A DNA stretch of 64,000 nucleotides from Thermoanaerobaculia bacterium (GTDB lineage: Bacteria > Acidobacteriota > Thermoanaerobaculia > Multivoradales > JAIOJS01): the NCBI GenBank assembly GCA_030429235.1, contig JAUIDB010000004.1, positions 1 through 64,000 on the forward strand. The letters are read 5' to 3'. The position numbers were made by a program, and so were the translations under genes. Numbering within the stretch: position 1 is the first letter of the stretch; every line of letters begins with the position of its first letter. Below, one piece after another: positions 5,782-57,493 of the stretch. The notes beneath the pieces were generated by a model that was not told the origin of the DNA, did no database searches, and was given only the letters and a program-made list of their open reading frames with translations.

Positions 5782-8484
5782 TCAGCTGCAGCCCGAGGTC
5801 GAACCGCAGGTCAGGCATCGGTAGCAGGAACCGCTTCGCACCATGATCGAACCGCAGGAACCACAGGAGGGGGAGTCCTGCTGGTAGAGGAAGGTGCCGG
5901 TGCCGTCCAAGGTCGCGGGTGCCTCAGGTGAAGCGACCTCGGCCGGATCCGCGGGAGTGCGCGGGCTGACCACGCCCGCTGCACGTTGCGCGTCGGGATC
6001 CAGGAAACGCGCGGCCAGCCACCGAAAGACGTAGTCGGTCAGGGACTTGGCCAGTGGAATCTCCGGGTTGCGAGTGAAACCGCTCGGTTCGAATCGGGTG
6101 TGGGAGAACTTGTCGATCAGGGTCTGGAGCGGGACGCCATACTGCAGGGCGATCGACACGGCGGTGGAGAAGGCGTCGACCAGTCCGGAGATAGTCGAGC
6201 CCTCTTTGGCCATCACCAGGAAGATCTCGCCCGGCTGGCCGTTTTCGTAGAGTCCCACCGTGAGATAACCCTCGTGTCCGCCGACTGAGAACTTGTGGGT
6301 AATGGCCTGGCGTTCGTCCGGCAGGTGACGGCGTTCGGACCGGGTCGGAGCCAGCGTGTCCGGGGGGGCTTCTCCCGACAGTGGTTGGCTGGCCTTGCAG
6401 CCGTCGCGATAGACGGCGACCGCTTTGATGCCGAGCCGCCAGGCTTGGAGAAAGATCTCCTCGATCTCCTCCACCGTGGTCTCCCGGTCCACGTTGACGG
6501 TCTTGCTGATTCCGCCGGAGAGAAAGGGCTGCAGGGCCCCGAGCATCTTCAGGTGTCCGGACCAGCCGATCGATCGACTGCCGTTGACGGGCCGAAAGGC
6601 ACAGTCGAACACCGGTAGGTCGCGGTTTCGGAGCCCAGGGGCGCCCTCCACGGTTCCCTGTTGGTCGGCCCATTCGGTGATCTCGCCCACCTGGTCGGGA
6701 CCGTAGCCGAGTCGAGCGAGAGCCAGGGGGACGGTTCGGTTGACCAGGCGGAGCGTGCCCCCGCCGGCGAGCCTCTTGTGCCGCACCAGGGCGATCTCGG
6801 GCTCGACGCCGGTCGTATCGCAGTCCATCATGAAGGCGATGGTGCCGGTGGGGGCGAGGACCGTGACCTGGGCATTACGGACTCCGGTCTCTTCTGCCTC
6901 GCGCAAGGCCTCGTCCCAGAGCTCGCTCGCGGGGCGGCTGAGGTCCGTGGGAGCGGCCTCGAGTTGGTGCAGTGCCTCACGGTGTCGCCGGAGAACGCCG
7001 AGAAGGGAGTCTCGGTTCTCGCCGAAGGCATCGAACGGCCCCCGGACGCGAGCCAACCGGGCAGAGCACCGATAGGCCGCCCCGGTCAGGAGAGCCGTGA
7101 TGGCAGCGGCGTAGGTGCGCCCCTCTGCGGAGTCGTAGGGGAGACCGTTGGCCATCAGCAGGGCCCCGAGATTGGCGTAGCCAAGGCCGAGGGGGCGAAA
7201 TCGTTTCGAGTTGCGCTCGATGGCAGGGGTTGGGTAGCTCGCGCGGTCGACCAGGATCTCCTGAGCGGTCAGAAGGATCTCACAGGCGTGGACGAAACCG
7301 ACGCTGTCGAAACCCTGCTCGGGATCGTGGAACCGCAAGAGGTTGAGAGAGGCCAGGTTGCAGGCGGAGTCGTCGAGGAAGAGGTACTCGCTGCACGGAT
7401 TGGAGGCGCGGATCGGTCCGCTGGTGGCGCAGGTATGCCAGCCCTGGATCGTGTCTCGGTACTGGATCCCTGGATCACCACACGACCAGGCGGCCTGCGC
7501 GATACTGCGGAAGAGGCGACGGGCCGGCTGGCTCTCCAGGGCGGTCCCATCCCGCACGGAGCGGGTGGTCCAGCTCCGGTCCTCCTCTACCGCCTGCAGG
7601 AACTCGTCGCTGAGGCGAATCGAGTGGTTGGCATTCTGGAACGCCACCGTATCGTAGGCACCGCCCGCGACGTCGAAACCCGGATCGTAGCCCGCTGCGA
7701 CCAGAGCGCGAGCCTTCTCCTCTTCTCGCGCCTTGCACTGGGCAAAGGCCTCGATGTCCGGATGATCATCGTCGAGGATGACCATCTTGGCAGCCCGCCG
7801 CGTCTTGCCACCGCTCTTGATGGCGCCGGCAAAGGCATCGAAGCCTCGCATGAACGAGATCGGCCCCGAGGCGGTGCCACCGCTGGAGAGGGGTTCCTGC
7901 GATCCCCGGAGCGACGACAGATTGGTGCCGCTTCCCGATCCGTACTTGAAGAGAAGACCCTCGGTCTTGGCCAGGTCCAGGATCGAGGCCATCGAGTCCT
8001 CGACCGAGTTGATGAAGCAGGCGGAGCACTGCGGGCTGGCCTCGACTCCGACGTTGAACCAGACGGGAGAGTTGAAACTCGCCCTCTGGTGGAGCAGGAG
8101 GTAGGCCAGCTCGTCCCCAAAGGTGTCAGCGTCGGCCCGCGAGGCAAAGTAACCGTCGTCCCGGCCCCAGGCCACGATCGAGTCGGCGACGCGGGAGATC
8201 AGTTGCCGTACGCTACGTTCGCGGTCTGGAGATCCGAGGGCCCCCCGGAAGTACTTACTCGCCACCACGTTGGTCGCATCCTGGGACCAGGCGGCGGGCA
8301 CTTCGACCCCGCTCTGTTCGAAGACCGGTCCGGCTTCACCGCGAATCTGGGTTTCGCGAGTCGTCCACTCGATCTGCTCGAAGGGGGAGCGATCCGCCTC
8401 GGTCCAACGTCTCTGGAAGCGAAGCCGGACTGGTTCTTGAGCGGTTGGGGACTCCTCGGGTTGGATGGTGGCCTCGCTGGGCAT
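5782..8484 (-). CDS. nrdJ: Adenosylcobalamin-dependent (class II) ribonucleoside-diphosphate reductase
   Basis: The 900-residue protein matches NrdJ of the zinc-ribbon type. It has the substrate-site region RASFNSPVWFNVG, the FKYGSGSGTNLSSLRG loop, the thiyl-radical motif NPCSEY, PTGTIAFMMDCDTTG, and a cysteine-rich C-terminus (CGSCGS, CYRCLTCGSTSGCS) that re-reduces the active site. It makes deoxyribonucleotides using coenzyme B12 and needs no oxygen. The start is supported by GAGGAG nine bases before ATG on the minus strand. Two NrdR-like boxes lie 40-86 bases upstream. A second, class I reductase is encoded at 53626-57493, so the cell can make dNTPs with or without B12. Confidence 0.95.
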   Translation of the reverse strand: MPSEATIQPEESPTAQEPVRLRFQRRWTEADRSPFEQIEWTTRETQIRGEAGPVFEQSGVEVPAAWSQDATNVVASKYFRGALGSPDRERSVRQLISRVADSIVAWGRDDGYFASRADADTFGDELAYLLLHQRASFNSPVWFNVGVEASPQCSACFINSVEDSMASILDLAKTEGLLFKYGSGSGTNLSSLRGSQEPLSSGGTASGPISFMRGFDAFAGAIKSGGKTRRAAKMVILDDDHPDIEAFAQCKAREEEKARALVAAGYDPGFDVAGGAYDTVAFQNANHSIRLSDEFLQAVEEDRSWTTRSVRDGTALESQPARRLFRSIAQAAWSCGDPGIQYRDTIQGWHTCATSGPIRASNPCSEYLFLDDSACNLASLNLLRFHDPEQGFDSVGFVHACEILLTAQEILVDRASYPTPAIERNSKRFRPLGLGYANLGALLMANGLPYDSAEGRTYAAAITALLTGAAYRCSARLARVRGPFDAFGENRDSLLGVLRRHREALHQLEAAPTDLSRPASELWDEALREAEETGVRNAQVTVLAPTGTIAFMMDCDTTGVEPEIALVRHKRLAGGGTLRLVNRTVPLALARLGYGPDQVGEITEWADQQGTVEGAPGLRNRDLPVFDCAFRPVNGSRSIGWSGHLKMLGALQPFLSGGISKTVNVDRETTVEEIEEIFLQAWRLGIKAVAVYRDGCKASQPLSGEAPPDTLAPTRSERRHLPDERQAITHKFSVGGHEGYLTVGLYENGQPGEIFLVMAKEGSTISGLVDAFSTAVSIALQYGVPLQTLIDKFSHTRFEPSGFTRNPEIPLAKSLTDYVFRWLAARFLDPDAQRAAGVVSPRTPADPAEVASPEAPATLDGTGTFLYQQDSPSCGSCGSIMVRSGSCYRCLTCGSTSGCS

Positions 8485-8523
8485 GGCGTGCTCCTCTCGT
8501 GGTGAGGACCAAGCTTGCAGGCT

Positions 8524-8570
8524 CTACCAGATCTTGTGGTATGACGGAGGTCAGGCACTACAGAGAGTAG
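8524..8570 (-). promoter_or_regulatory. Pair of candidate NrdR boxes upstream of nrdJ
   Basis: CTACCAGATCTTGTGG (8524-8539) and GCACTACAGAGAGTAG (8555-8570) each match 10 of 16 positions of the NrdR box recalled as ACACWATATWTWGTGT. Their centres are 31 bp apart, the helical spacing known for tandem NrdR boxes. The second box lies in a perfect 10-bp inverted repeat, arms CAGGCACTAC (8552-8561) and GTAGTGCCTG (8567-8576). The better-matching pair upstream of nrdA strengthens the call. Confidence 0.55.
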
Positions 8571-8629
8571 TGCCTGGGCTCGCGAGCGCACGATCTGCGG
8601 ACGTCAGGTCCCGACGCGAGGGTCCTCCT

Positions 8630-9943
8630 TCAGTCGGTCGCCTGCAGGTACCTCGAGACTGCCTCGTGACCGATCTGCCAACCCAGGTGGTATCCCGCGA
8701 CCGAGTCATAGCGGAAGTGAATTCCCAGATAGACCCGAGAGAGTGCGCACTCCAGGGCGGCCGACGGAAAGTCCTCGAACGATCGAGTGGCCGGCTCCAT
8801 CGCCACCTTGCCCGAGAAGGGCCCGGCGCGATCCACTTCGGGGGTGACCATGGTGAAGTCCAAGTCTTCCCCGAACGTGGCGGCGAAGACTGCCATGGCG
8901 GCGGCGCATGCGGTGCCGTGCGCCGATGGGTAGGAGGGAAAGGCGTAGGTGTGGCCATGCATCGTGTCCCAGTCTTTGTCGGGGATGGTGCGCGGATTGC
9001 CGTCGTGGGCGGCCCAGCGGATGGCGGTGTAGGGACGCCAGTGGTTGTAGTGGAACTTGTTCTCGAACACGCTGACGTAGGCGTCGAACAGGCTCATCTC
9101 GAGCAGCGCGTAGAGGCGCGTCGCATCCCAGAGGTCGAGTTCCTGGTCGGCGACCAGCTGTCGGGCCAGGCGGTTGGTCGAGTTCTCGGCGAAGTCCTTC
9201 CACCACATCGCGAGGTGGCTCTGATCGGGCGTCCTGGTCTGGCTCCCGCGACGGCCGACCTCCTTGACCTCGCGGTAGGCCTCGACGTACTCGTCGCTCT
9301 CGATCGCGGGGGGTGGCGCCACGCGATACTGGTCGGGCCGTACCAGGAGAAAGGGACGTGCGGTGGCCCAGCCGGCGCCGAAGACGAAACCCTCCGGAGT
9401 CCCACTGTGTTCGGCGAACTCGGCGTAGACACCCGGCCCCATGGGGTGCCAGACGTAGGCCGCTTCACGGTTCCAGCCATCGCCCCGTCGCTTTGCGAGC
9501 ACCCGATCGGCCACTACCTGCCCGAAGGCGATCCCGCGCTCGCGCGCCACGGGATCCAGGACCGACTCCAACCCGAGAGAACGTTGCTCACTCCAGAGCG
9601 CCTCGCGATCCGGGTACTGATCCCGCGCGATCGAGTACGCCACCTGCGTGGCGGCGGCGGTGGGGTCTCCGGCGGCAACGATCTCGTCGTTCAGGTAGGT
9701 CGCGTAGCGTGGGTCGAGGCGGTTCAGGGCCTCGTGCATCCCCAGGTGGACCAGGGCGGCGGTTCGAAGTCCCTTCAGGGTGAGGAACCCGTCCTCGGCT
9801 TCGGCGGCGGTCAGGATCAGTTCGTTCCAGGCCGAGGCCAATCGACCCTCCGAGGACGGGATCTCGGCCCAGGTAGCCGAAGCCCAACCGATCGCTCCGA
9901 TCAGGAGGAGAGTGGTGAGGTGTCTCGAGCTTTCTCGTCGCAT
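8630..9943 (-). CDS. Vanadium-dependent haloperoxidase / PAP2-superfamily secreted enzyme
   Basis: The 437-residue protein has a signal peptide (cleavage near residue 26) and the three-part vanadate/phosphate site of the superfamily. K296-x6-RP is at 303-304, PSAH is at 339-342 where most relatives have PSGH, and SRVYLGIHFRYD follows near the C-terminus. Length and the HWRPYTAIR segment fit vanadium haloperoxidase-like proteins more than short acid phosphatases. Substrate (halide or phosphate ester) cannot be read from sequence. CCCAAGGGAG precedes the ATG. It is divergent from the HxlR regulator, with a 106-bp gap. Confidence 0.85.
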   Translation of the reverse strand: MRRESSRHLTTLLLIGAIGWASATWAEIPSSEGRLASAWNELILTAAEAEDGFLTLKGLRTAALVHLGMHEALNRLDPRYATYLNDEIVAAGDPTAAATQVAYSIARDQYPDREALWSEQRSLGLESVLDPVARERGIAFGQVVADRVLAKRRGDGWNREAAYVWHPMGPGVYAEFAEHSGTPEGFVFGAGWATARPFLLVRPDQYRVAPPPAIESDEYVEAYREVKEVGRRGSQTRTPDQSHLAMWWKDFAENSTNRLARQLVADQELDLWDATRLYALLEMSLFDAYVSVFENKFHYNHWRPYTAIRWAAHDGNPRTIPDKDWDTMHGHTYAFPSYPSAHGTACAAAMAVFAATFGEDLDFTMVTPEVDRAGPFSGKVAMEPATRSFEDFPSAALECALSRVYLGIHFRYDSVAGYHLGWQIGHEAVSRYLQATD

Positions 9944-10849: not shown

Positions 10850-11092
10850 CTAGTCGTGGGTTGAGGACGAGACGGCCGGTGCTTTCGGTTGGCGGACCAG
10901 CGAGAAGAGATAGAGCCCGATCCCGGCCACGACGAGGGAGCCACTGCCGAGGGCGAAGGCGAGGAACCCGGTAGGGCTCTGCAGGGCGCCGAACGACATC
11001 AGTTCGACCAGCAGTCCGACCACGATGAGCAGCGCCGACCATCGGAGGTAGGGACGGCTGCGGGTCGGGGCCGAGTTTTCGGAGCCGGTCAT
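10850..11092 (-). CDS. Small membrane protein at the end of the cytochrome operon
   Basis: The 80-residue protein has two predicted membrane helices (about 17-37 and 44-66) and no recognised domain. Its ATG at 11092 overlaps the stop of the tetrahaem cytochrome gene (ATGA), so the two are translationally coupled. The longer frame upstream is a shadow of the cytochrome gene. It may be an assembly or stabilising partner of the NapC-type protein, but nothing in the sequence shows this. It converges on the HxlR gene, and the 56-bp gap between them has no clear terminator. Confidence 0.7.
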   Translation of the reverse strand: MTGSENSAPTRSRPYLRWSALLIVVGLLVELMSFGALQSPTGFLAFALGSGSLVVAGIGLYLFSLVRQPKAPAVSSSTHD

Positions 11093-11721
11093 GGGCCTTC
11101 CGTCCTGGTCGGTTCGGCGGTGGGCCAGCGATCGTAGTCTGCCAACGAGGCGACCTCGTGGCTCATGTCGTGACACTCGAGGCAGGAGAGTTCGTTGGAC
11201 TCGATCTCGGCCCGGTCCTCGGCGTGCATCTCTTCGTAGAGCCGCGCCCCGGCGTGGCAGTGCAGACACTCTCGGTTGTGGTAGGGCTCGTACAGTTCGA
11301 TCGTCTCCGGAGTCGCACCACGGTAGTAGACGAGGAGATGGCGTACGCCGTTGATCTTCGCGGCGAGGTCGCCGTACATGGTGTACTGGGTATGGCAGGT
11401 GTAGCAGGCTCGGTCGCGGTCGATCCGTCGGTTCTGGAAGTGCGAAGCGGGCAGGGCAAACTCGTCATCGATCGCGAGACTCTCCCCGTAGGGCTCCATG
11501 ACATGGCAGGAGAGGCAGAACTCGGTGCTCTTCGAACTCTCGAGATGAGTCGAGACGCCGGCCCAGAGGCAAGTCACGGGAAGGACGAAAAGCGCCAGAA
11601 ACGCCATGGCCTGACCACCGGAGCGGGTGACCAGTCGTGGTTGTGCCACCACGAGCATGGCGAAGCCGATCCCCACTAGCACGAGCGTGACGAGCAGATA
11701 CCAACCGAGAGTCGCGTCCAT
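11089..11721 (-). CDS. NapC/NirT-type membrane-anchored tetrahaem cytochrome c
   Basis: The 210-residue protein has two hydrophobic stretches at the N-terminus (about 5-27 and 38-56) followed by a periplasmic domain with four CxxCH sites: CLSCH, CYTCH, CLHCH and CLECH. This matches the NapC/NirT/NrfH/CymA group, which takes electrons from menaquinol or ubiquinol and hands them to periplasmic cytochromes. The first membrane helix is extra compared with NapC, which normally has one anchor. It sits between a monohaem cytochrome gene (11 bp upstream) and a small membrane protein (ATGA overlap). The gene cluster diverges from the MtrA/MtrB/NirS arm, for which it is the obvious inner-membrane electron donor. 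Confidence 0.85.
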   Translation of the reverse strand: MDATLGWYLLVTLVLVGIGFAMLVVAQPRLVTRSGGQAMAFLALFVLPVTCLWAGVSTHLESSKSTEFCLSCHVMEPYGESLAIDDEFALPASHFQNRRIDRDRACYTCHTQYTMYGDLAAKINGVRHLLVYYRGATPETIELYEPYHNRECLHCHAGARLYEEMHAEDRAEIESNELSCLECHDMSHEVASLADYDRWPTAEPTRTEGP

Positions 11722-11732
11722 CGCGGGAGCCC

Positions 11733-12131
11733 CTAGAGGGTCGCGAGCCAGTCCAGAATCGCCTGGAGTTCCTCGTCCGTTCCCTTGAAGGGCTTCTTGT
11801 GTTTCTCACCCTCCAAAGACTCCTCCTGGCGCAGGTACTTCTCGACGCTCGTGCGATCGAAGTCCTCGCCCAGTCCCGCTAGATCACGCGCCTGCATCTT
11901 CTCGGACTTCGTGCGCCGCTCGATGCCGTGGTTGGACACTGCGTGACAGAGGTTGCACTTCTGGGCCTCGAACGCCATCTGTCCCGCCGGCACCTCGACC
12001 TGGGACGGCGCCGGCTGGCTCGTAGCCGGCGTGGCGGCAGCGGGAACGAAGGTGGACAGGACGAGCGGAGTAGCCAACAGCGCTAGCAGCCGCCGGCCGA
12101 AGAGTGGGGAGTTCGTCTCTACGTAGTTCAT
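11733..12131 (-). CDS. Periplasmic monohaem cytochrome c
   Basis: The 132-residue protein has a signal peptide (MNYVETNSP... to about residue 35) and one haem site, CNLCH, in the context AFEAQKCNLCHAVSNHGI, then a class I cytochrome-like C-terminus ending AILDWLATL. A methionine ligand is not obvious: the only Met after the haem site is in KSEKMQARDL. The ATG at 12131 is chosen over the upstream frame because GAGG lies eight bases before it. As first gene of the minus-strand arm it may shuttle electrons between the NapC-type protein and the decahaem or cd1 proteins encoded across the divergent promoter. Confidence 0.85.
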   Translation of the reverse strand: MNYVETNSPLFGRRLLALLATPLVLSTFVPAAATPATSQPAPSQVEVPAGQMAFEAQKCNLCHAVSNHGIERRTKSEKMQARDLAGLGEDFDRTSVEKYLRQEESLEGEKHKKPFKGTDEELQAILDWLATL

Positions 12132-12210
12132 TGCTGGGGACCTCCGTCGGAAGGGTGACACCGAGGGCTCGGCCGTGCACCACTAGATTGCGTGGTAGAG
12201 GGGCCGCCTT

Positions 12211-12275
12211 TTTGGGTAAGTCTTTACTGCCCAAATAGATGTGTCAATGCCCGGGGCTCTATCGATACTGTCAAT
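12211..12275. promoter_or_regulatory. Divergent control region of the cytochrome cluster
   Basis: The 168-bp gap between the two arms holds an inverted repeat TTTGGG (12211-12216) / CCCAAA (12230-12235) with an A+T-richer core, and a direct repeat TGTCAAT at 12242-12248 and 12269-12275 (27-bp period). No FNR/DNR box (TTGAT-N4-ATCAA) is present. The symmetry suggests a regulator shared by both arms, but no factor can be named. Confidence 0.35.
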
Positions 12276-12299
12276 CCAACTCAAAGCGGAGGGTCAGGT

Positions 12300-13265
12300 A
12301 TGACGAGAATCCATCGGTCCTATTGGGTGCTCCCGGTGGCCGCACTCTTTCTTCTGGGCTATGGGCCATCACCGGGACGCACGGGCGCTACGGTTCCGTC
12401 GCACGTTCCGGTGGGTTGGGCTGAAGAGCCAGCGAGCGAAGTGACGGGGTACGCCGGAAGCGAGGTCTGCTCGGCTTGCCATGACGACATGGAGGCGCAC
12501 TTCTACTCCGGTCCCCACGGGTCGGACGCCTTTTCGCAGCGCAGTGACCTCGGCTGCGAGTCGTGCCACGGTCCGGGCGAGGCGCACGCCGACGATCCCG
12601 AGGATCCCACGGCGCGAGTGAACCTGTCTCGCTGGACGCCCCAGCGGCAGAGCGAGGTTTGTCTCACCTGCCACCAGGATACCCAACCCAGCTATCACGC
12701 TGGGCCCCATGCGGCGGCCGATCTCAGCTGCTCGAGTTGCCACAGCATCCACAACGACAGTGGTTGGACGCTGGTCGAAGAGCAAGCCGAGCTCTTTCAG
12801 CTGGCTCGCGTGAGCGGATCGAGTGCGCAGTGCATCCAGTGTCACGCCGACGCCGGCGTCGACTTCGAGCGCAACGAGCGGCACCGTCTGCAGGAGGGGA
12901 CCATGGACTGCGCCAGCTGCCACGATCCGCACGCGCCGTCAGCCAGGCTCCAACTCGGTGGCTTCAAGCAGCAAGCGTGTATCGACTGCCATCAAGACAA
13001 AGGAGGACCCTTCGTCTTCGAGCATGGATCGGTCCGAGTCGAGGGCTGCACCGCCTGCCACGAGCCACACGGTGGCCCAAACCGGCACCAGCTCAAGTTC
13101 GAACGAGCCGCTGAGCTCTGCTACAGCTGCCACGTCGAGGTGCCGAGTTTCCACCTTGGTTTCGGGAGTTTTCCCCAGCCACCTCGTTTCGACCTCGACA
13201 CCAATTGCATGAACTGCCACAGCGCGATTCATGGATCCAACTTCGATCCCTACTTCTTGAAGTAG
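12300..13265 (+). CDS. Decahaem c-type cytochrome, DmsE/MtrA family
   Basis: The 321-residue protein has an N-terminal signal peptide and exactly ten CxxCH motifs: CSACH, CESCH, CLTCH, CSSCH, CIQCH, CASCH, CIDCH, CTACH, CYSCH and CMNCH. Length and haem count fit MtrA/DmsE/PioA, which sit inside an outer-membrane beta-barrel and carry electrons across the outer membrane. ATG at 12300 is preceded by GGAGG about 10 bases upstream; the longer frame from 12192 lacks a signal peptide at its start. The MtrB-type barrel follows after 10 bp. No outer-surface MtrC-like decahaem partner is encoded here, as in the PioAB and MtoAB systems. Confidence 0.92.
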   Translation: MTRIHRSYWVLPVAALFLLGYGPSPGRTGATVPSHVPVGWAEEPASEVTGYAGSEVCSACHDDMEAHFYSGPHGSDAFSQRSDLGCESCHGPGEAHADDPEDPTARVNLSRWTPQRQSEVCLTCHQDTQPSYHAGPHAAADLSCSSCHSIHNDSGWTLVEEQAELFQLARVSGSSAQCIQCHADAGVDFERNERHRLQEGTMDCASCHDPHAPSARLQLGGFKQQACIDCHQDKGGPFVFEHGSVRVEGCTACHEPHGGPNRHQLKFERAAELCYSCHVEVPSFHLGFGSFPQPPRFDLDTNCMNCHSAIHGSNFDPYFLK

Positions 13266-13275
13266 AGAGGGCATC

Positions 13276-15114
13276 ATGAAGCACACTCGCAATCCCTACC
13301 GTTCTCTGCTGGCTGGCCTGTCGTTGGTCGTCTGCGCGGCCACTCCCGCCCTGGCCCAGGAGGGGGAGGGAGTCATTCTTCTGGGGTACCGCAGCGTCGA
13401 CGTCGACGGTTCCCAGGCCGAGTTCGACGAGGACATCAATCAAGACGACGGTCCGGTGCTCTTCCGGTTGGACATTTCGGTCGATCCCGAGAGTGGTCTC
13501 GCCGACCACCTCGAACTCGACGCCACAGACCTGGGTGGTCAGAGTTTCGAGTCGCTCCACTTCGGGGCTCGGAGCTACGGAGTGTACGAATTCACCTTCG
13601 ACCGTCGCGAGTCCGACTACTCCTACCACGACACGCTGGGGGCGGCCGATGGGACGGCGCATCCGGACTACCACACCTTCGACTTCCGTCGGGTGCGGGA
13701 CGTGGCACGGCTCGAGCTGGACCTCGCTCCGACGGCGACGCTGACGTTCGGGTTCGACCGTTTCTCGAAGAGCGGAGAATCCACGACGACCCTCGACATT
13801 TCTCGCGACGAGTTCGAGTTCCACCGACCTGTCGACGAAGAGATGGAGTCCTTTGATGTTGGGTTCTCGTACGCCTGGGACAAAGTTACCCTGGTGCTCG
13901 AAGAGCGCATCAGTGACTACCAGAACATGGTGGAGGTGTTCCTGCCGGGGGCCTCCGAGGGCGAAGCCCCGGGCCCGGCGACCCTGGACTTCTTCTTTCT
14001 CGATCAGCCTTACGACTACTCGAGTCAGAGGCATACGGCGAGAGTGCTGGCCCGTCCCCACGAGAAGCTCGATCTACGGTTCTCGGCTTCTCTCGAGAGT
14101 CTCGACCTCGACCTCGAAGCCTCCGAGCATTCTCAGGGGACGACCTTCTCGGGCAGTCCCTTCACCACCGACCTCGGCGGCGAGGGGCAGATCGATCGCG
14201 ACATCGAACTCTACGACTTCGAGTTGACCTATCTCGTCAACGAGCGCCTGGGAGTCGTGGCCGGAGCGCGGCACAAGGCGCTGGACCAGCGCGGTGGTCT
14301 CGCCTTCGGCACCGACTTCAACGCCAGCAACTGGGAGCTCGAATCGACCGGCTACGAGGCCGGGGTCCGGTTTCGGCTGCCCAGGGACTTCAGCCTGGGA
14401 GGTGGTCTGGCGTTCGAGACGCGGGACATTGCCTTCCACTGGGAGCAGGGCAGCGAGGGACACGGGGAGGACGGCAGCACCGACAGCTCCGGCTACTGGT
14501 TGGACCTGGCCTGGCGACCCGACCGCTCGCTGGAACTGATCGCCAAGATCGATACGAACTCCTTCGACGATCCGTTCACCCTGACGAGTCCCACGGATCG
14601 GTCGCGCTATCGACTTCAGGGACGCTACCGCTGGGAGAACGGCCTGAGTTTGCAGGCTTCGGTACTGCGGAGCGACTTCGAGAACGATGATTCTGGCTGG
14701 ACGTCGGATACGCTGCGTTCGACGGTTCGGTTGGGATACACCCGACCGGATCTCGTGGCTTCGTTTGGCTACTCCAACGTCGAGATGGACCGCGAGATCG
14801 CTCACGTAGTCGCCGGGGGGGCTCTGCGTCCCTTCTTCGACATCGACTACGGATCCGACTCGGACTTCTTCGATGGTCGGGTGAGGTGGTCTCCCACGGA
14901 ACGGCTGGCGGTCGGGGGCAACGTCTATTTCTACGACAACGCCGGCAGTTTCGCACTGCAACGGGAGGACCTTCGGGCCTTCGTCGAGTGTGCCTTCACC
15001 GACCACTACGTCGGCGGCATCTCCTATCGCCGGGTGGACTACGACGAAGGGTTGTTCGACTTCGACGACTACTCGGCCGACATCGTCGAACTGACCGTCG
15101 GCTACCGTCACTGA
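13276..15114 (+). CDS. MtrB/PioB-family outer-membrane beta-barrel
   Basis: The 612-residue protein has a signal peptide (about 1-27, ending PALAQ). It is then almost entirely alternating amphipathic strands rich in Asp, Tyr, Ser and Arg, as in MtrB/PioB/DmsF porins of 26-28 strands. Typical stretches are GYRSVDVDG, VGGISYRRVDYDE and the closing VELTVGYRH. The CXXC pair near the N-terminus of Shewanella MtrB is absent. The family forms the sheath that holds the decahaem protein encoded immediately upstream. The start ATG has AGAGAGGG upstream. Identification rests on family features and its place beside the decahaem gene. Confidence 0.85.
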   Translation: MKHTRNPYRSLLAGLSLVVCAATPALAQEGEGVILLGYRSVDVDGSQAEFDEDINQDDGPVLFRLDISVDPESGLADHLELDATDLGGQSFESLHFGARSYGVYEFTFDRRESDYSYHDTLGAADGTAHPDYHTFDFRRVRDVARLELDLAPTATLTFGFDRFSKSGESTTTLDISRDEFEFHRPVDEEMESFDVGFSYAWDKVTLVLEERISDYQNMVEVFLPGASEGEAPGPATLDFFFLDQPYDYSSQRHTARVLARPHEKLDLRFSASLESLDLDLEASEHSQGTTFSGSPFTTDLGGEGQIDRDIELYDFELTYLVNERLGVVAGARHKALDQRGGLAFGTDFNASNWELESTGYEAGVRFRLPRDFSLGGGLAFETRDIAFHWEQGSEGHGEDGSTDSSGYWLDLAWRPDRSLELIAKIDTNSFDDPFTLTSPTDRSRYRLQGRYRWENGLSLQASVLRSDFENDDSGWTSDTLRSTVRLGYTRPDLVASFGYSNVEMDREIAHVVAGGALRPFFDIDYGSDSDFFDGRVRWSPTERLAVGGNVYFYDNAGSFALQREDLRAFVECAFTDHYVGGISYRRVDYDEGLFDFDDYSADIVELTVGYRH

Positions 15115-15458
15115 CGCCGGGGCCGGGAGACTTCGAGGCGCGGTCTCGCGGTCGATTCGGAGCCCCGAACTGATCGCCGTCATACGCCTCGGCCTGGAGT
15201 CGCGGTCATGCTATGCCTGTCGTGTGGACTCAGGCCCCAGGCGGTCCTTCTCGCCAACCAACTTCTCGCCCTGAGCGATCACGGTACCCCTTTCCCGAAG
15301 GGCTCTGCCCTCGGCCGTTGGGTGACCGGGTTCTCCGGTCCACGACCCCAGTTGGCAGCCGAGCTGAGCAGCTCGGAGATGACGTTCCCAGGACCGTAGC
15401 GCTGGCCCCTGTAACGGCACGAAGCCAGCGTTTCCTGAATCGCAACAAGGAGATCACG
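15115..15458 (+). other. 344-bp gap between the barrel and nitrite reductase genes, no gene seen
   Basis: No convincing reading frame, tRNA or riboswitch is seen. A short hairpin GACCGG-GTTCT-CCGGTC occurs around 15325-15345. The gap is long for an operon, so nirS may have its own promoter here, but no -10/-35 pair or FNR/DNR box is clear. Confidence 0.4.
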
Positions 15459-17378
15459 ATGACCCTGAATCCACCCCGATCGTTGGTCGGACTCGGACTT
15501 ATCCTATTGACCGCGCTCCTCACCGGCTGTTCCGGAGGAGAGAAGGGAATCGGCGATCCGGTCGCCGGTCAACAGGTCTTCGAGCGCAACTGCCTGACCT
15601 GTCACACCGTGGGCCAGGGGGATCGCATCGGCCCCGATCTGATCGATATTCACGAGCGACGCGATCGCGATTGGCTGGTGCGCTGGATCGACGACCCGAT
15701 CGGAATGTCCAAGACCGACCCGATCGGTCAGCAGATCCTGGCCGAGTGGAACAACGTTCCCATGGCCGATTCGAACCTGACCAAGGGCCAGATCGACGAC
15801 GTCCTGGCCTACCTGGAGAAGGCGAGTGGGGAAGGCGGTCTGGTGGTCGAAGAGAAGCCCTTCGAGCCACTGGAAGGAGAGCGCTTCGAGTTGGCCAAGG
15901 ACATCTACTTCAACCGCTGCGCGGGCTGTCACGGAACGTTACGGGCGGGAGCCACTGGTCCGAACATCCAGCCTACTCGGACCCAGGAGATCGGCACCTC
16001 GGGCCTGGAGCGGATCCTCAACGACGGTCTTCCGGGCGGCATGCCCCCCTGGGGCCGGATGGAGATCCTGACGGCGGACGAGATCAACATGATGGCCAAC
16101 TACGTACAGATGAATCCGCCCGAGCCACCACAGCTACCGCTGGAGGAGATCACCGAGACCTGGAACTTGATGGTGCCGGTGGCGGATCGGCCCTCCGAGC
16201 CGAAGACCGAGCGGGACTGGGAGAACTACTTCGGCATCATCCTGCGGGACGCCGGCAAGGTAGCGATCATCGACGGCGATACCAAAGAGAACGTCGCCAT
16301 CATCGACACCGGCTTTGCGGTCCACATCCTCCGCGCGTCGTCGACCGGGCGCTACTTCTACGCGGTCGGGCGCGATGGGCGGGTCTCGATGATCGATCTG
16401 TGGACCGAGACTCCGAGTCTGGTAGCCCAGGTACAGGGCTGCTTCGATGCTCGAAGCGTCGATGGCTCCAAGTTCGAGGGTTACGAGGACCAACTGGTCA
16501 TCGAGGGTTGCTACTGGCCCCCGCAGTACGTGATCTTCGACGGCCAGACGCTCGAGCCCAAGACGGTGCATTCGGTGTTGGGCCCGACCGTCGACACCCA
16601 GGAAGAACTGGACGAGGTCCGCGTGGCCGCCATCGTGGCGTCGCACTACGACCCGATCTGGGCGATCGGCCTGAAGGAGTCGGGCTACGTCGGATTGGTC
16701 GACTACTCGAAACCGGACTTCCCGATGACCCACAAGATCGCCGCCGAGCGGTTCCTTCACGACGGCGGATTCGACCACACCGGACGCTACTTCCTCACGG
16801 CCGCCAACATGCGGGATCAGATGGCGGTGATCGATCTCAAGGAACAGAAGATGGTCACCAAGTTCGAGACCGGAATCAAGCCGCATCCGGGGCGGGGAGC
16901 CAACTGGCAGGATCCGGAGTTCGGTTGGGTGAACGCCACCACCCACCTCGGTCAGGGCAAGCTTTCGGTGTACGGGGCAGATCCCGAGGGGTCTCCGGAG
17001 CATGCCTGGAAGCTCGTTCGAGAGGTCGAACTTTCGACCGCCGGCAGCCTGTTCTTGAAGACCCACCCCGAGTCGCAGTGGGTTTGGATGGACTTCCCGC
17101 TCTCGTCGGACGAAGAGCTGACCCGACAAATCTGCGTCTACTCGAAGGAGACGGCGGAGGTAGAGAAGTGCTGGCAGCCCACCGACCACGGTCGGACCGT
17201 GCACTTCGAGTACAACCGACAGGGCACCGAGGTCTGGGTGTCGGGCTGGGACAAGGCAGGGGAACTCGTGATCTACGACGACAAGACCCTGGAGGAGATC
17301 CACCGGATCGCCGAAGACTGGTTGGTGACGCCGACCGGCAAGTTCAACGTGTACAACACGTCGAACGATATCTACTGA
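15459..17378 (+). CDS. nirS: Cytochrome cd1 nitrite reductase with an additional N-terminal cytochrome c domain and lipobox
   Basis: The 639-residue protein starts with a lipoprotein signal (LTGC, Cys24). A first cytochrome c domain has CLTCH at 45-49 and a likely Met ligand in NVPMAD. A second has CAGCH at 154-158 in the NirS context RCAGCHGTLRAGATG and the segment GGMPPWG. The d1-haem propeller (about 235-639) follows. The propeller keeps proximal-ligand H289 (GFAVHI) and the catalytic pair H434 (FLHDGG) and H476 (PHPGRGAN), 42 residues apart as in Pseudomonas NirS (H327/H369), and ends TPTGKFNVYNTSNDIY. It should reduce nitrite to nitric oxide. Usual NirS has one c domain and is soluble. 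AAGGAG supports ATG at 15459. No d1-haem synthesis genes are in the window. Confidence 0.9.
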   Translation: MTLNPPRSLVGLGLILLTALLTGCSGGEKGIGDPVAGQQVFERNCLTCHTVGQGDRIGPDLIDIHERRDRDWLVRWIDDPIGMSKTDPIGQQILAEWNNVPMADSNLTKGQIDDVLAYLEKASGEGGLVVEEKPFEPLEGERFELAKDIYFNRCAGCHGTLRAGATGPNIQPTRTQEIGTSGLERILNDGLPGGMPPWGRMEILTADEINMMANYVQMNPPEPPQLPLEEITETWNLMVPVADRPSEPKTERDWENYFGIILRDAGKVAIIDGDTKENVAIIDTGFAVHILRASSTGRYFYAVGRDGRVSMIDLWTETPSLVAQVQGCFDARSVDGSKFEGYEDQLVIEGCYWPPQYVIFDGQTLEPKTVHSVLGPTVDTQEELDEVRVAAIVASHYDPIWAIGLKESGYVGLVDYSKPDFPMTHKIAAERFLHDGGFDHTGRYFLTAANMRDQMAVIDLKEQKMVTKFETGIKPHPGRGANWQDPEFGWVNATTHLGQGKLSVYGADPEGSPEHAWKLVREVELSTAGSLFLKTHPESQWVWMDFPLSSDEELTRQICVYSKETAEVEKCWQPTDHGRTVHFEYNRQGTEVWVSGWDKAGELVIYDDKTLEEIHRIAEDWLVTPTGKFNVYNTSNDIY

Positions 17379-17431
17379 TCGGCCGGTTTGGGCCCGAGGG
17401 CCTGATTGCGGCCTGAGGGTTCCGGTCCGAG

Positions 17432-17463
17432 AACCGCCGCGGTGTACGCCGCGGCGGTTTTTT
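17432..17463 (+). terminator. Rho-independent terminator after the nitrite reductase gene
   Basis: A perfect 11-bp stem (AACCGCCGCGG at 17432-17442 with CCGCGGCGGTT at 17449-17459) around a 6-base loop is followed by a T run to 17463. It lies 54 bases after the nirS stop and closes the plus-strand cytochrome arm. Confidence 0.93.
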
Positions 17464-17614
17464 GTCTACCTCCCCTTCGGGTTGCTGCCCGGAGGGCAGT
17501 GCGGAACGACTCCACCGTCGGGCCGGTGGCCCAGCGCGCTCGAGTTTCCACCAAGGCCTCAGGCTGCCGACTCTGCCGGCGCGCCGCGCCGTGGGCATGC
17601 CAGAAGCGGAGGTC

Positions 17615-52888: not shown

Positions 52889-53666
52889 CCCGCCCCGAGC
52901 CTTGGTGCAGCTGCGCGGGGTGTCGTATCGCTACGGCAGTGGCCCCCCGGTACTCGACGGAGTCGACGCGGACTTTGCGGCGGGCCTGACCCTGGTGGTG
53001 GGTCCGAACGGGGCCGGCAAGTCGACCCTGCTGCGCCTGGTGGCCGGAGTGGAGCGTCCCTCGAAAGGAACGATCCGACTCGCGGGCCACGACCTCTGGC
53101 GGGCCGAGGTAGCGGCTCGTCGGGGGCTGGTGTATCTCCCCGAACAGCCCGACCTCTCACCCTACGCGAGTTTGGAAGAGACGTTGGCCATGGTCTGTCG
53201 GGTGCGTGGCATCGCCCTTTCGCGGGTCGACGAGGTGCTGGCCGCGACCCAGTTGGCGGCCCACCGCCACCGCAGCGTACGACAGCTGTCGATGGGACAG
53301 CGCCGGCGGGGCCTCCTGGCCGCCGCCTGGATTGGCTGGCCGGAGATTGCGGTCCTCGACGAGCCGCTCGAAGCCATGGACCGAGAGGGTCGACAGCAGA
53401 TCGTGCGTTGGGTGACCGAACTGCGGCAGGACCGCGTCGCCGTTCTGCTCGCGACCCACGACTTCGAGCCGTTCGTCGCGGTGGCCGACGAGGTCGTCGC
53501 CGTCGGACGGAACGGTCTACTGCGACACCGCCTCGACGGTCTCGACGAGGACCAGCGGATGGTCCGCGTCGAGCAACTCGCGGGCCGGCCGCGGCAGGCC
53601 GCGGAAGGCGCCTCCGCGTCGGCGGCTAGTCCCAGTCCAGGCTGGCGCCCGTCTGGTACTCGGTGA
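52875..53666 (+). CDS. ABC transporter ATP-binding protein
   Basis: The 263-residue protein has Walker A GPNGAGKST, a Q-loop region YLPEQPDLSPYASLEE, signature LSMGQRRRG, Walker B IAVLDEPLEAMD and H-loop LLATHDFEPF, as in CcmA/NatA-type exporters. The start ATG at 52875 has GGGAG nine bases upstream and overlaps the permease gene; the longer frame lies within it. The C-terminal 41 bp overlap the 3' end of the convergent nrdB gene. Confidence 0.88.
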   Translation: MSSADPPRALVQLRGVSYRYGSGPPVLDGVDADFAAGLTLVVGPNGAGKSTLLRLVAGVERPSKGTIRLAGHDLWRAEVAARRGLVYLPEQPDLSPYASLEETLAMVCRVRGIALSRVDEVLAATQLAAHRHRSVRQLSMGQRRRGLLAAAWIGWPEIAVLDEPLEAMDREGRQQIVRWVTELRQDRVAVLLATHDFEPFVAVADEVVAVGRNGLLRHRLDGLDEDQRMVRVEQLAGRPRQAAEGASASAASPSPGWRPSGTR

Positions 53667-54621
53667 CCCGGGTTTCGAAGAAGTTCTTCTCCTTCGACAG
53701 ATCGGTCGCCTGCGACATCCAGGGGAAGGGGTTCTCGCGCTGGTAGACCTTGGGCAGATTCAATCGTTCGAGTCGCCGGTCGGCCACGTACTCGACGTAC
53801 TGTGAGAACTTGTCGGCGTTGATTCCGAGCAGACCCTGGGGGCAGGCATCGTGCGCATACCGCTGCTCCAGCACCACCGCCTGTTTGATCAAGTCGACGA
53901 TCTCGTCCTTGAAGTCGCGGGTCCAGATCTCGGGATTCTCCGCCAGGATGGTGTTGATGAGATCACAGCCGAAGGCCAGGTGCAGGCTCTCGTCCCGCAT
54001 GATGTACTCGAACTGCTCACCGATTCCGACCATCTTGTTCTGCCGACGCAGGGCCAACATCATCGCGAAACCCGCGTAGAAGAAGATCCCCTCCATGATG
54101 ACGTAGAAGCCGACCAGGTCGCGCACGAAACGTCGAATGTTCTCGGGCCCGTCCGTGGTGAAGGTCGGATCGAACACGCTCTTGGTCAACTCGACGACGT
54201 AGTTGTCCTTGTCCTCGATCGACGGGATCGTCTTGTACATGTTGTAGATCTCCTCGGGATCGAGCCCGAGAGAGTCACAGCAGTAGATGAAGGTATCGGT
54301 GTGGATCGCCTCCTCGAACGCCTGGCGGAGGAGGTACTGGCGCGACTCGGGATTGGTCACGTGGTTGTACACCGCCAGCACGATGTTGTTGGCGGTCAGG
54401 GACTCGGCGGTGGAGAAGAAGCCGAGGTTCCACAGGATCAGGCGTCGCTCGGTCTCGCTGAGCGCCGTCTGCGACTTCCACTGCTCGACGTCCTTCTGCA
54501 TCGAGACCTCTTCGGGGGTCCAGTTGTTGGCCACGCCGCTCTTGTAGTACTCCCGAGCCCAGGGGTAGGTGAAGGGAAGGATCTTGTTGGGGTCGGTCTT
54601 CGAGTTGTTGATGATGGTCAT
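53626..54621 (-). CDS. nrdB: Class I ribonucleotide reductase small subunit, class Ic (Mn/Fe-type) signature
   Basis: The 331-residue R2 protein has the six metal ligands at E73, E104, H107, E177, E211 and H214. Their spacings (31, 3 and 34 residues for 73-104, 104-107 and 177-211) equal those of E. coli D84/E115/H118/E204/E238/H241. The first ligand is Glu instead of Asp. The radical-tyrosine site (seven residues after E104) is Phe111 in EAIHTDTF. Both changes define class Ic R2, known from Chlamydia trachomatis, which uses a Mn/Fe centre in place of a tyrosyl radical. Y322 near the C-terminus fits the radical-transfer Tyr. The gene follows nrdA by 79 bp. Confidence 0.92.
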   Translation of the reverse strand: MTIINNSKTDPNKILPFTYPWAREYYKSGVANNWTPEEVSMQKDVEQWKSQTALSETERRLILWNLGFFSTAESLTANNIVLAVYNHVTNPESRQYLLRQAFEEAIHTDTFIYCCDSLGLDPEEIYNMYKTIPSIEDKDNYVVELTKSVFDPTFTTDGPENIRRFVRDLVGFYVIMEGIFFYAGFAMMLALRRQNKMVGIGEQFEYIMRDESLHLAFGCDLINTILAENPEIWTRDFKDEIVDLIKQAVVLEQRYAHDACPQGLLGINADKFSQYVEYVADRRLERLNLPKVYQRENPFPWMSQATDLSKEKNFFETRVTEYQTGASLDWD

Positions 54622-54700: not shown

Positions 54701-57493
54701 CTATTGGCAGGCTTCGCAGTCGGGATCATCGATCCGACAGAGCTTGGCTTCGGGCTGCCGGGCCGACGGTTGGCGCTCGGTCGTGGCCACGGCGGCGGCC
54801 GCCGGGGTCTCGTACTCCCGCTTCTGGGTGTACCCGAACTTCTTGGCGTCGAGGGTGGACTTCTCGACCTGAGTCGCGGCCAGGGAACGCAGATAGTAGG
54901 TCGTCTTCAGTCCCATCTTCCACGCCGCCGTATAGATCTCTGAAAGCAGCTTCCCCGAAACGCCCTTCATGAAGACGTTGTGGGACTGGCTCTGGTCGAT
55001 CCACTTGGCGCGAGCGGCGGTCAGGCGCAGGGCCCACATCGGAGAGATCTCGAACGCTTCCTTGTACTTGGCCCGAAGCTCTTCCGGTATGCCGGCGATC
55101 TGCTGGACGCTTCCGTCGTAGTACTTGAGCTGGTCCAGCATCTCGTCGTTCCACAGGCCGAGCGCTTCGAGGTCTTCGATCAGGTAGCGGTTCACGATGG
55201 TGAACTCTCCACTGATGTTGGCCTTGACGTAGATGTTCTTGTAGATCGGCTCGATACAGGGGAAACAGCCTGAGATGTTGCTGATGGTGGCGGTGGGCGC
55301 GATCGCCATGGTGTTGGAGTTCCGCATACCGTGCTCGGCGACATGACGCTTCACCGGACCCCAGTCCAGCCGCTGCGTACGGTTCACTTCGACCGCAACG
55401 CCCCGCTCCTGCTCCAGCAGCTCCAAGGTGTCGAAGGGGAAGATCCCGCGGTCCCACTTGGACCCGGCGAAGGAGGGGTACGCACCGCGATCCGCCGCCA
55501 GCTGCGAAGACGACAGGATGGCGTGGTACGACACGACCTCCTGGATCCGATCGGCCAGGTCGAGGGCGTCCTGGCTCTCGAAGGGGATCTCGAGCTGGTA
55601 GAGGGCGTCCTGGAATCCCATGATGCCGAGACCGACCGGGCGGTGCTGGAGGTTCGAGTTGCGGGCCTCGTCGGTGGGGTAGAAGTTGATGTCGATGACG
55701 TTGTCCAGCATGCGCATCGCGGTGGTGGCGGTGCGAGCGAGACGTTCCGCGTCGATATCCCCGTCGGTGACGTGGCGCGAGAGGTTGATCGACCCCAGGT
55801 TGCAGACGGCAGTTTCGGTCGCGGAGGTGTTCAGCGTGATCTCGGTGCAGAGATTCGAGCTGTGGATGACGCCGACATGATCCTGCGGCGAACGGATGTT
55901 GCAGGGGTCCTTGAAGGTCATCCAGGGGTGGCCGGTCTCGAACAGCATGGTCAGCATCTTGCGCCAGAGGTCCTTGGCTCGGACCTGCTTGGCCAGCCGC
56001 ATCTCACCCGCCTTGGCCTGCTGCTCGTAGCCGATGTAGGCCTGCTCGAAGGCGCGACCGTACAGCTCGTGCAGATCCGGAGTCTCGTCCGGTGAGAAGA
56101 GGGTCCATTCGCCATCCTCGATGACCCGCTTCATGAACAGGTCGGGGATCCAGTTGGCCGTGTTCATGTCGTGGGTGCGGCGTCGCTCGTCGCCGGTGTT
56201 CTTCCGAAGATCGAGGAAGTCTTCGATGTCGTAGTGCCATGTTTCCATGTAGGCACAGGTCGCACCGCGGCGCTTGCCGCTGCGGTTGATCGCCATCGTG
56301 ACGTCGTTGGCGATTTTGAGGAAGGGCACGACCCCCTGGCTCTCGACGTTGGTGCTGTGGATCTGCGAGCCGGTCGCTCGGATGTTCGACCAGTCGTTGC
56401 CGATGCCGCCGGACCACTTGGAGAGCTGGGCGTTGTCGGCCAGACACTTGAAGATGTGCTTGAGGTCGTCGTCGACGGTGGTCAGATAGCAGGAGGAGAG
56501 CTGGGGATGGGCCGTGCCCGAGTGGAAGAGGGTCGGGGTCGAAGGCACGTAGTAGAGCTGCGACATCAGGTCGTAGAACTCGAGGGCGCGCTCGTTCGGG
56601 TTGTCCTCCTCGACGGCGAGTCCCATGGCGACCCGCATCCAGAATCCCTGCGGCAGCTCGAGTGGTTTGCCGTCGGCTCGCAGGAAGTAGCGGTCGTAGA
56701 GGGTCTGGATGCCGAGGTACTGGAACTCCAGGTCGCGATCGAGCTTGAGGCTCGCGGCCATCAGGTCGAGGTCGAAGTCCAGCAGTCGGCGATCGAAACG
56801 GCCCTCGTCGACGCCGTGGCGAATCCCATCCTGGAAGGTGGTGCGGTAGGCCCGATCGAGGTCGTCGCCTTCGGTCGAGCGGCCGATGACCTCCTTGTAG
56901 AGCTTCTGAAGCAGCAGGCGAGCGGCGACGAACCCGTAGGACGGGTGGCGCTCGATGAAGGCGGCCGAGGCGAGAACCAGGGCCCGTTCGATGTGGTCGG
57001 CGGGGATCTCGTCGTAGACGTTGTTGATCACCTCGCGGGTGACCAGGTCGACATCGACGTCTTCACCCAGCTCGTCGGCGGCGCGGAGCAGATTCTGCTC
57101 CAGCTTCTTGACGCTGAAGAGTGCCGTCTGGCCACTGCGCTTGACCACCGTGAGTTTGCCGAGGCGAGCGTCCTTCATGGCGCGTTGCTGCGCCTGCTGC
57201 CGCATCTTCTGGCGTTCGGCGCGGTAGAGGATGTACGCCTTGGCGGTGGCGTAGAGGCCGTCGAGGACCAGGTGCTTCTCGACGATGTCCTGAATGTTCT
57301 CGACGTTGGGGTAGAAGTCGATGAAGCGCCGGTCGATCTCTTCCACGATCGTATCGGTCAGAGAGCGGATGCGCGATTCCTCGATCGGCGTCGTCTCGGC
57401 GGCCTGCACGGCTTTGGTGATGGCGTTGTAGATCCTCTCCTGGTCGAAGTCCACGACATCGCCGGTCCGCTTGACGACTTTGATCCCTGGCAT
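54701..57493 (-). CDS. nrdA: Class I ribonucleotide reductase large subunit with two ATP-cones
   Basis: The 930-residue protein starts with an ATP-cone (about 5-92, KVVKRTGDVVDFDQERIYNA). A second, diverged cone follows (about 114-200, LTVVKRSGQTALFSVKKLEQ). The catalytic barrel then has redox Cys335 and Cys564, and the N547/C549/E551 radical motif in SSNLCTE; C335 to C549 is 214 residues, exactly as C225-C439 in E. coli. The C-terminal redox pair is C926/C929 (CEAC). The cones sense ATP/dATP for overall control. GGAGAGGG precedes the ATG, and a pair of NrdR-like boxes lies 120-167 bases upstream. It probably starts a nrdA-nrdB transcript. Confidence 0.95.
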   Translation of the reverse strand: MPGIKVVKRTGDVVDFDQERIYNAITKAVQAAETTPIEESRIRSLTDTIVEEIDRRFIDFYPNVENIQDIVEKHLVLDGLYATAKAYILYRAERQKMRQQAQQRAMKDARLGKLTVVKRSGQTALFSVKKLEQNLLRAADELGEDVDVDLVTREVINNVYDEIPADHIERALVLASAAFIERHPSYGFVAARLLLQKLYKEVIGRSTEGDDLDRAYRTTFQDGIRHGVDEGRFDRRLLDFDLDLMAASLKLDRDLEFQYLGIQTLYDRYFLRADGKPLELPQGFWMRVAMGLAVEEDNPNERALEFYDLMSQLYYVPSTPTLFHSGTAHPQLSSCYLTTVDDDLKHIFKCLADNAQLSKWSGGIGNDWSNIRATGSQIHSTNVESQGVVPFLKIANDVTMAINRSGKRRGATCAYMETWHYDIEDFLDLRKNTGDERRRTHDMNTANWIPDLFMKRVIEDGEWTLFSPDETPDLHELYGRAFEQAYIGYEQQAKAGEMRLAKQVRAKDLWRKMLTMLFETGHPWMTFKDPCNIRSPQDHVGVIHSSNLCTEITLNTSATETAVCNLGSINLSRHVTDGDIDAERLARTATTAMRMLDNVIDINFYPTDEARNSNLQHRPVGLGIMGFQDALYQLEIPFESQDALDLADRIQEVVSYHAILSSSQLAADRGAYPSFAGSKWDRGIFPFDTLELLEQERGVAVEVNRTQRLDWGPVKRHVAEHGMRNSNTMAIAPTATISNISGCFPCIEPIYKNIYVKANISGEFTIVNRYLIEDLEALGLWNDEMLDQLKYYDGSVQQIAGIPEELRAKYKEAFEISPMWALRLTAARAKWIDQSQSHNVFMKGVSGKLLSEIYTAAWKMGLKTTYYLRSLAATQVEKSTLDAKKFGYTQKREYETPAAAAVATTERQPSARQPEAKLCRIDDPDCEACQ

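Follow-up and report, generated by a model that had tools for sequence, protein, structure and literature searches.

A 64,000-nucleotide stretch of contig JAUIDB010000004.1 from a Thermoanaerobaculia bacterium (Acidobacteriota; assembly GCA_030429235.1), hereafter the window, carries genes for an MtrA/MtrB-type outer-membrane electron conduit upstream of a gene for a cd1-type nitrite reductase, NirS. The original prediction for this DNA read the locus as one respiratory module, in which electrons from outside the cell or from quinol could reach nitrite. Does the locus encode one module or two, and where would its NirS obtain haem d1? Comparison with related genomes indicates that it probably comprises two neighboring respiratory units, an Mto-like conduit and an orphan C1-C2-NirS (two c-type haem domains ahead of the d1 domain, in a genome without known haem d1 biosynthesis genes), which are adjacent in this genome only. 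On the sequence evidence, the intact haem d1 site without known d1 genes in the same genome, also seen in close relatives of this NirS from other phyla, is a more surprising point than the adjacency to the conduit.

Gene content and layout of the locus

The locus has the following features.

10850..11092, minus strand: small predicted membrane protein of 80 amino acids, called from sequence; its start codon and the NapC stop share 4 bp (ATGA)
11089..11721, minus strand: membrane-anchored tetrahaem cytochrome of the NapC/NrfH family, putative interface with quinol/quinone; 4 CxxCH motifs
11733..12131, minus strand: monohaem class-I-like cytochrome c, putative shuttle; start is the ATG at 12131
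12132..12299: divergent intergenic region of 168 bp between the monohaem cytochrome gene and mtrA
12300..13265, plus strand: decahaem DmsE/MtrA-family cytochrome; 10 CxxCH motifs, TIGR03508
13276..15114, plus strand: MtrB/PioB-family outer-membrane barrel; PF11854, model match to MtrB
15115..15458, plus strand: mtrB-nirS gap of 344 bp
15459..17378, plus strand: C1-C2-NirS, a lipoprotein whose two c-type haem domains precede a d1 propeller of the cd1 type; PF02239
17432..17464, plus strand: intrinsic terminator; a T run follows the 14-bp repeat

CxxCH counts and profile matches confirmed the five genes named in the original prediction, and the strong terminator that it placed at the end of the cluster is also present. 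A 14-bp inverted repeat at 17432-17459 precedes the T run, and a 51-nt stretch folded at -29.2 kcal/mol (z -4.8), with no shuffled sequence folding equally well. Our terminator scan missed the site at 17432-17464, probably through its rules for loops and tails, and it was found by repeat search and folding. Since the cluster is divergent, the NapC/monohaem pair and mtrAB-nirS do not form one operon; a search of the divergent region for the sigma-70 consensus found none. The nirS reading frame has its first ATG at 15213, and the likelier start is the ATG at 15459, which has AAGGAG just upstream and opens a lipoprotein signal ending in LTGC. As this start lies 344 bp after mtrB and has its own AAGGAG, the layout does not show co-transcription with mtrB. 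Neither a terminator-like nor a sigma-70-like site was found in the gap between the two genes.

An Mto-like conduit

The decahaem protein scored 204.8 bits against the DmsE family TIGR03508 (cut-off, 192.2) and matched chain A of the Mtr complex in the PDB (6r2q, 4.7e-34). The barrel protein exceeded the cut-off of PF11854 (1.2e-8) and did not reach that of TIGR03509 (14.9 of 240 bits). Because these family scores were modest, its structure was predicted. Searching PDB profiles with an MtrB alignment had returned only one chance-looking match, so that a fold search was needed; the top PDB fold match of the AlphaFold model, built from nine homologues (pLDDT 75.7), was chain B of 6r2q, the MtrB of the solved Mtr complex (E 2.5e-15, TM 0.64). 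The tetrahaem protein matched Pfam NNT (PF03264, 3.4e-8) and NrfH (5e-13) in profile searches; against the PDB, its single sequence gave no match and its profile matched NrfH weakly. In the monohaem cytochrome, C59, C62, H63, and H111 were invariant in all 11 homologues, and the invariance of the second histidine, H111, suggests that the protein is likely bis-His ligated, as is MtoD.

This composition corresponds to that of the mto cluster of Sideroxydans lithotrophicus ES-1, which encodes MtoA, MtoB, CymA/ImoA, and MtoD (PMC4412085), and bears out the comparison with PioAB/MtoAB systems made in the original prediction. Both sets cluster a decahaem MtrA homologue, an MtrB barrel, a NapC-family tetrahaem protein, and a monohaem periplasmic cytochrome without MtrC, and the monohaem protein of the window shares its invariant second histidine with the bis-His MtoD. 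Unlike in the mto cluster, the gene order in the window is divergent, a small membrane protein is added, and MtrB is only distantly related. Matches of the monohaem protein to MtoD were too weak to assign it as an orthologue (phmmer E 0.23; profile, 0.0052; fold Z 6.5, at rank 24 amid many class I cytochromes). The protein has a class I c fold, and MtoD is one of many fold matches. A second monohaem protein, PmcA, and not MtoD, partners ImoA and MtoA in Sideroxydans (PMC13390432), indicating that electron routes in mto-like sets cannot be read from gene order alone.

MtrA and MtrB components and the MtrB fold are also shared with the MtrCAB and PioAB conduits, whereas, unlike in MtrCAB, no MtrC is present in the window. 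Among the window's open reading frames of more than 140 amino acids, CxxCH motifs occurred only in the four cytochrome/NirS proteins, in agreement with the predicted lack of an MtrC-like surface cytochrome; the genome outside the window was not searched for MtrC. The evidence thus supports an Mto-like composition, that is, MtrAB without MtrC, with a NapC-like tetrahaem protein and a monohaem shuttle.

In such a unit (10850-15114), the decahaem MtrA would sit inside the MtrB barrel and pass electrons through the outer membrane, with the monohaem cytochrome as a periplasmic shuttle and the NapC-like protein exchanging electrons with the quinone pool. With MtrC absent, electron flow is likelier to be inward, for example from Fe(II), to judge from gene content.

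The conduit is conserved apart from nirS

We searched 99 related genomes with the window MtrB and NirS. MtrB had strong matches in 12 other genomes, all belonging to the same order, and MtrA adjoined MtrB in all 12 loci (partially in L090). The monohaem cytochrome gene was found in 11 of these loci, and NapC (46-56% identical) together with the small membrane protein in eight, mostly in the same divergent layout.

No full NirS was detected in any of the 12 MtrAB genomes, where the NirS query matched at most short stretches of cytochrome c domain. Conversely, we examined 19 further nirS loci, drawn from Gemmatimonadota, Acidimicrobiia, Gammaproteobacteria, and the phylum of the window itself. 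No mtrA or mtrB gene was found in the sequence available around any of them, which is restricted by contig breaks for G046, G777, and L034; nirS itself is split over contig ends in G046 and G777, and several relatives are draft genomes. Only the genome of the window has both, and co-occurrence of mtrAB and nirS among the 99 relatives was no more than expected by chance (Fisher p 0.51). In the one further genome available for the genus, both MtrB and NirS are missing. The synteny by which the original prediction proposed to check its module is therefore lacking in relatives, and a joined module of the MtrAB conduit and NirS is not supported by these genome comparisons.

Some MtrAB loci differ in other ways. 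Those without NapC carry very large multihaem cytochromes near mtrAB, at L083 15432-18550 (9-11 haem motifs), L087 11357-17816 (18-21), and L088 12838-17395 (5). In G007:C6 (L090), mtrB and a partial mtrA at 7798-9837 are interrupted, with an in-frame TGA in mtrB, reflecting either a broken gene or recoding.

A two-c-domain NirS with an intact active site

The window NirS matched PF02239 at 5.8e-108. The original prediction of a NirS-type reductase held in that a cd1 NirS is present, and fell short in that the protein, with the domain order C1-C2-d1 and a lipoprotein signal, is not a standard cd1 enzyme with one c domain. Its c-d1 part aligned over the full length of the Paracoccus pantotrophus cd1 (E 2e-154). 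All checked residues are kept, namely the C2 haem motif and M106, H200 (the proximal d1 ligand), R174, R203, R216, R243, Y263, R391, and the distal H345 and H388 (P. pantotrophus numbering). H345 and the H388/R391 pair, not all of which the NirN and NirF homologues retain, set the protein apart from those two families, and in a phylogenetic tree the window protein grouped with NirS, with NirN forming a long branch of low-support placement. Relatives in Gemmatimonadota and Acidimicrobiia were 64-66% identical, and the NirS of G189, a genome with the d1 pathway, was 67% identical.

The protein thus resembles Paracoccus and Pseudomonas cd1 NirS in full-length c-d1 homology and conserved ligands, and differs from them in its extra c domain, its lipoprotein signal, and the lack of a nir operon and of known d1 genes in the genome. 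Another counterpart is the C1-C2-NirS described in 2022 as unique to Chloroflexi (Schwartz et al., PMC8756737), which has no adjoining denitrification genes and is accompanied by eNOR in one genome; the main text of that report mentions nirF in just three places, and a survey of d1 genes was not found in it. The window NirS shares with it two c domains N-terminal to d1, the same catalytic residues, the lack of adjoining denitrification genes, and an eNOR in the genome. The hosts differ, being here a non-Chloroflexi genome, Gemmatimonadota, and Acidimicrobiia. If the C1 domains are homologous, two-c-domain NirS would thus be distributed more widely than Chloroflexi.

Known haem d1 biosynthesis genes are missing from this and other NirS genomes

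The genome containing the window (4.85 Mb, listed as 100% complete) gave no match to PF17805 (NirDLGH/AhbAB). PF02239 matched only NirS and one weak propeller, with no match at the scale of NirF; that propeller, a 349-amino-acid YVTN-like protein on contig C37, reached 24 bits per piece (44 together) and was rejected as NirF, the NirF-position proteins of d1-competent genomes scoring 110-390 bits. The best NirJ-like protein, on contig C58, scored 217 bits against NirJ and 345 bits against TIGR04055 (NirJ2), under both cut-offs, and its NirJ score was well below those of NirJ-like proteins of d1-competent relatives. Accordingly, NirDLGH, NirF, and a full-scoring NirJ, sought elsewhere in the genome as the original prediction had suggested, were not found.

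Other candidates did not fill this gap. The C58 gene (L122 9167-10411) encodes a radical SAM/SPASM protein with a score between NirJ2 and AhbD and adjoins oxidase genes. It was rejected as a d1 enzyme because its presence does not track nirS: the sister genome, which has no nirS, carries an 86% identical copy, and searches of G046, G072, G024, G442, and most Gemmatimonadota orphans gave no close homologue. From its context, it perhaps functions in general haem supply or synthesis. Radical SAM loci on C13 and C86 were set aside for want of nir-like neighbor genes.

The d1 genes were likewise not found in 14 other NirS genomes (G046, G072, G024, G286, G442, G099-G103, G106, G561, G647, and G777), all searched with PF17805 and PF02239, the latter at stricter E-value limits in part of the searches, and the first set also for NirJ. 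Five genomes (G023, G104, G105, G134, and G189) had NirS together with NirF and NirDLGH matches and NirJ-like proteins, indicating that the searches detect the pathway where it is present. Every checked d1-contact and distal catalytic residue was kept in all orphan NirS. As the genes are absent from many relatives and the active site is intact, their absence does not show that the enzyme is dead. Orphan and d1-competent NirS were mixed in the NirS tree, whose well-supported branches require three or more switches between the two states, indicating that the orphan state has arisen or spread by transfer on more than one occasion.

eNOR-type genes beside orphan nirS

Contig C88 of the same genome (L130 75-5317) encodes eNOR subunits I and II and a cytochrome b. 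We applied the published criterion (PMC8756737), an active-site Gln replacing the oxidase Tyr and a cupredoxin subunit II beside subunit I; the C88 subunit I has the diagnostic Gln at the aligned column and subunit II is adjacent. Subunits of this type also adjoin nirS in G072, with the diagnostic Gln seen, and in G647 and G777, where the pair was assigned from the size of the subunits, a CPxTGL motif, and the adjacent subunit II. These genes, beside orphan nirS and in the genome of the window, favor a role in conversion of nitrite to nitrous oxide. Within the second unit (15459-17464), the extra c domain of the lipid-anchored NirS would relay electrons to its own cd1 core, nitrite would be reduced to nitric oxide, and the nitric oxide would be converted to nitrous oxide by the eNOR-type enzyme of contig C88.

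Other neighbors of nirS were noted. Alginate_exp-type barrels lie downstream in L034 and G647, and L035 has a similar-looking protein of 398 amino acids in that position. Rrf2-family regulators stand beside orphan nirS or its eNOR-type genes at L037 11846-12295 and L135 1939-2355; Rrf2 is the family of the nitric oxide sensor NsrR. The nirS loci L114 and L115, of this phylum, adjoin two-component regulators and apparent alternative complex III genes.

TonB-dependent receptors near orphan nirS

With no known d1 pathway in the genome, haem d1 would come from outside or by an undescribed route, or another haem would be used. TonB-dependent receptors occur near nirS in G046, G100, G101, G442, G561, and G647, with TIGR01785/TIGR01786 (haem/haemoglobin) as the best NCBIfam families, scoring over the cut-off in G046 and under it in the others tested. 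A profile built from these receptors picked up additional ones close to nirS in G106 and G777, and a weaker match in G024. The haem/haemoglobin-type receptors were located as follows.

L035: 13440-16079
L036: 11972-14596 and 15964-18243
L041: 12725-15868
L045: 1426-3816
L048: 6425-9064
L115: 5790-8309
L133: 5508-7673
L134: 5006-7159
L136: 2692-5769

A receptor lay no more than 2 kb from nirS at nine of 13 orphan loci from Gram-negative-type genomes, presumed to have an outer membrane, whereas the five d1-competent loci had none this close (Fisher p 0.03, treating loci as independent, although some are related). The profile was made from six of the nine, and these six were counted by their independent NCBIfam matches. 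On the same assumption of independence, nine of the 10 receptors fell within the 21% of locus sequence nearest nirS (binomial p 7e-6; p 9e-5 after exclusion of most of the window). The window nirS is one of the four receptor-less loci, with no such receptor within the 64 kb, so that a claim of import for its own genome rests on relatives. Two Acidimicrobiia nirS loci also had no receptor, as would be expected if these genomes, like their group in general, have no outer membrane.

Import of haem d1 would explain together why d1 sites stay intact where d1 genes are lacking, why NirS is a lipid-anchored enzyme of the periplasm, and why haem-type receptors lie nearby. We tentatively propose, as a possibility for which the odds are still against, that a set of cd1 NirS from at least three phyla uses haem d1 that true denitrifiers release, that the host imports by way of a TonB-dependent haem-type receptor, and that is loaded into NirS in the periplasm. 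The receptors could instead serve ordinary haem or iron uptake, and nothing on haem d1 uptake was found in the searched literature, which left out most subscription papers.

Other genes in the window

By inspection of the sequence, the window contains two apparent ribonucleotide reductase systems (5782-8484, and 53626-54621 with 54701-57493). A PAP2/vanadium chloroperoxidase-like protein is encoded at 8630-9943 (PF01569, 1.9e-11).

One module or two

The original prediction was thus right about a conduit without MtrC, accompanied by NapC-like and monohaem cytochromes, and its joining of that conduit to NirS is not supported; missing synteny in relatives and missing haem d1 biosynthesis are two of the three outcomes it had itself named as telling against it. 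The adjacency of the two units would most simply reflect independent acquisition or rearrangement and not selected joint function. Several points weigh against separate units: nirS and mtrAB share a strand and no terminator was detected in the gap, leaving read-through possible; a lipid-anchored periplasmic NirS could lie near MtrA; and a joint unit might be confined to this lineage, for whose genus one other genome is available. These same features of position and strand favor a single module in which extracellular or quinol electrons reach the window NirS through MtrAB, the monohaem cytochrome, and NapC, and an additional c domain and the lipid anchor could help NirS dock to a shuttle. Such electron flow is biochemically possible, yet we consider the single module rather unlikely, given that no relative conserves the pairing, that nirS has its own ribosome-binding site behind a 344-bp gap, and that the extra c domain and the anchor also occur in NirS relatives without mtrAB.

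With two separate units as the preferred reading, two further explanations bear on the cofactor. The d1-type domain might bind ordinary haem or none and act as a sensor, a scaffold, or a nitric oxide-binding protein instead of reducing nitrite, as the roughly 15 genomes that have such a NirS and no known d1 genes might suggest; a d1-free NirS structure is known (PMC7278500). Loss of d1 use should relax the residues that contact it, whereas these are kept in all orphans; moreover, eNOR-type genes adjoin three of the nirS genes and the orphans do not form one clade, making this role improbable. Less probable again seems an undescribed haem d1 pathway in this genome, with the C58 protein as one of its enzymes; the sub-cut-off NirJ2 and NirJ scores of that protein fit such a role, but its occurrence without nirS in the sister genome, its lack of close homologues in most orphans, and its position among oxidase genes, which fits general haem supply, argue against it.

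Conservation of the Mto-like unit identifies a conduit type carried by many members of one order. The second unit matters because nirS commonly serves as a marker gene for denitrification. If a whole set of NirS enzymes lacks the genes for its essential cofactor, then either non-denitrifiers are being miscounted in surveys, or community members share haem d1, or an unknown route to it exists, and each outcome would change how nirS is read in environmental data. If import is true, denitrification by these bacteria would depend on a shared cofactor.

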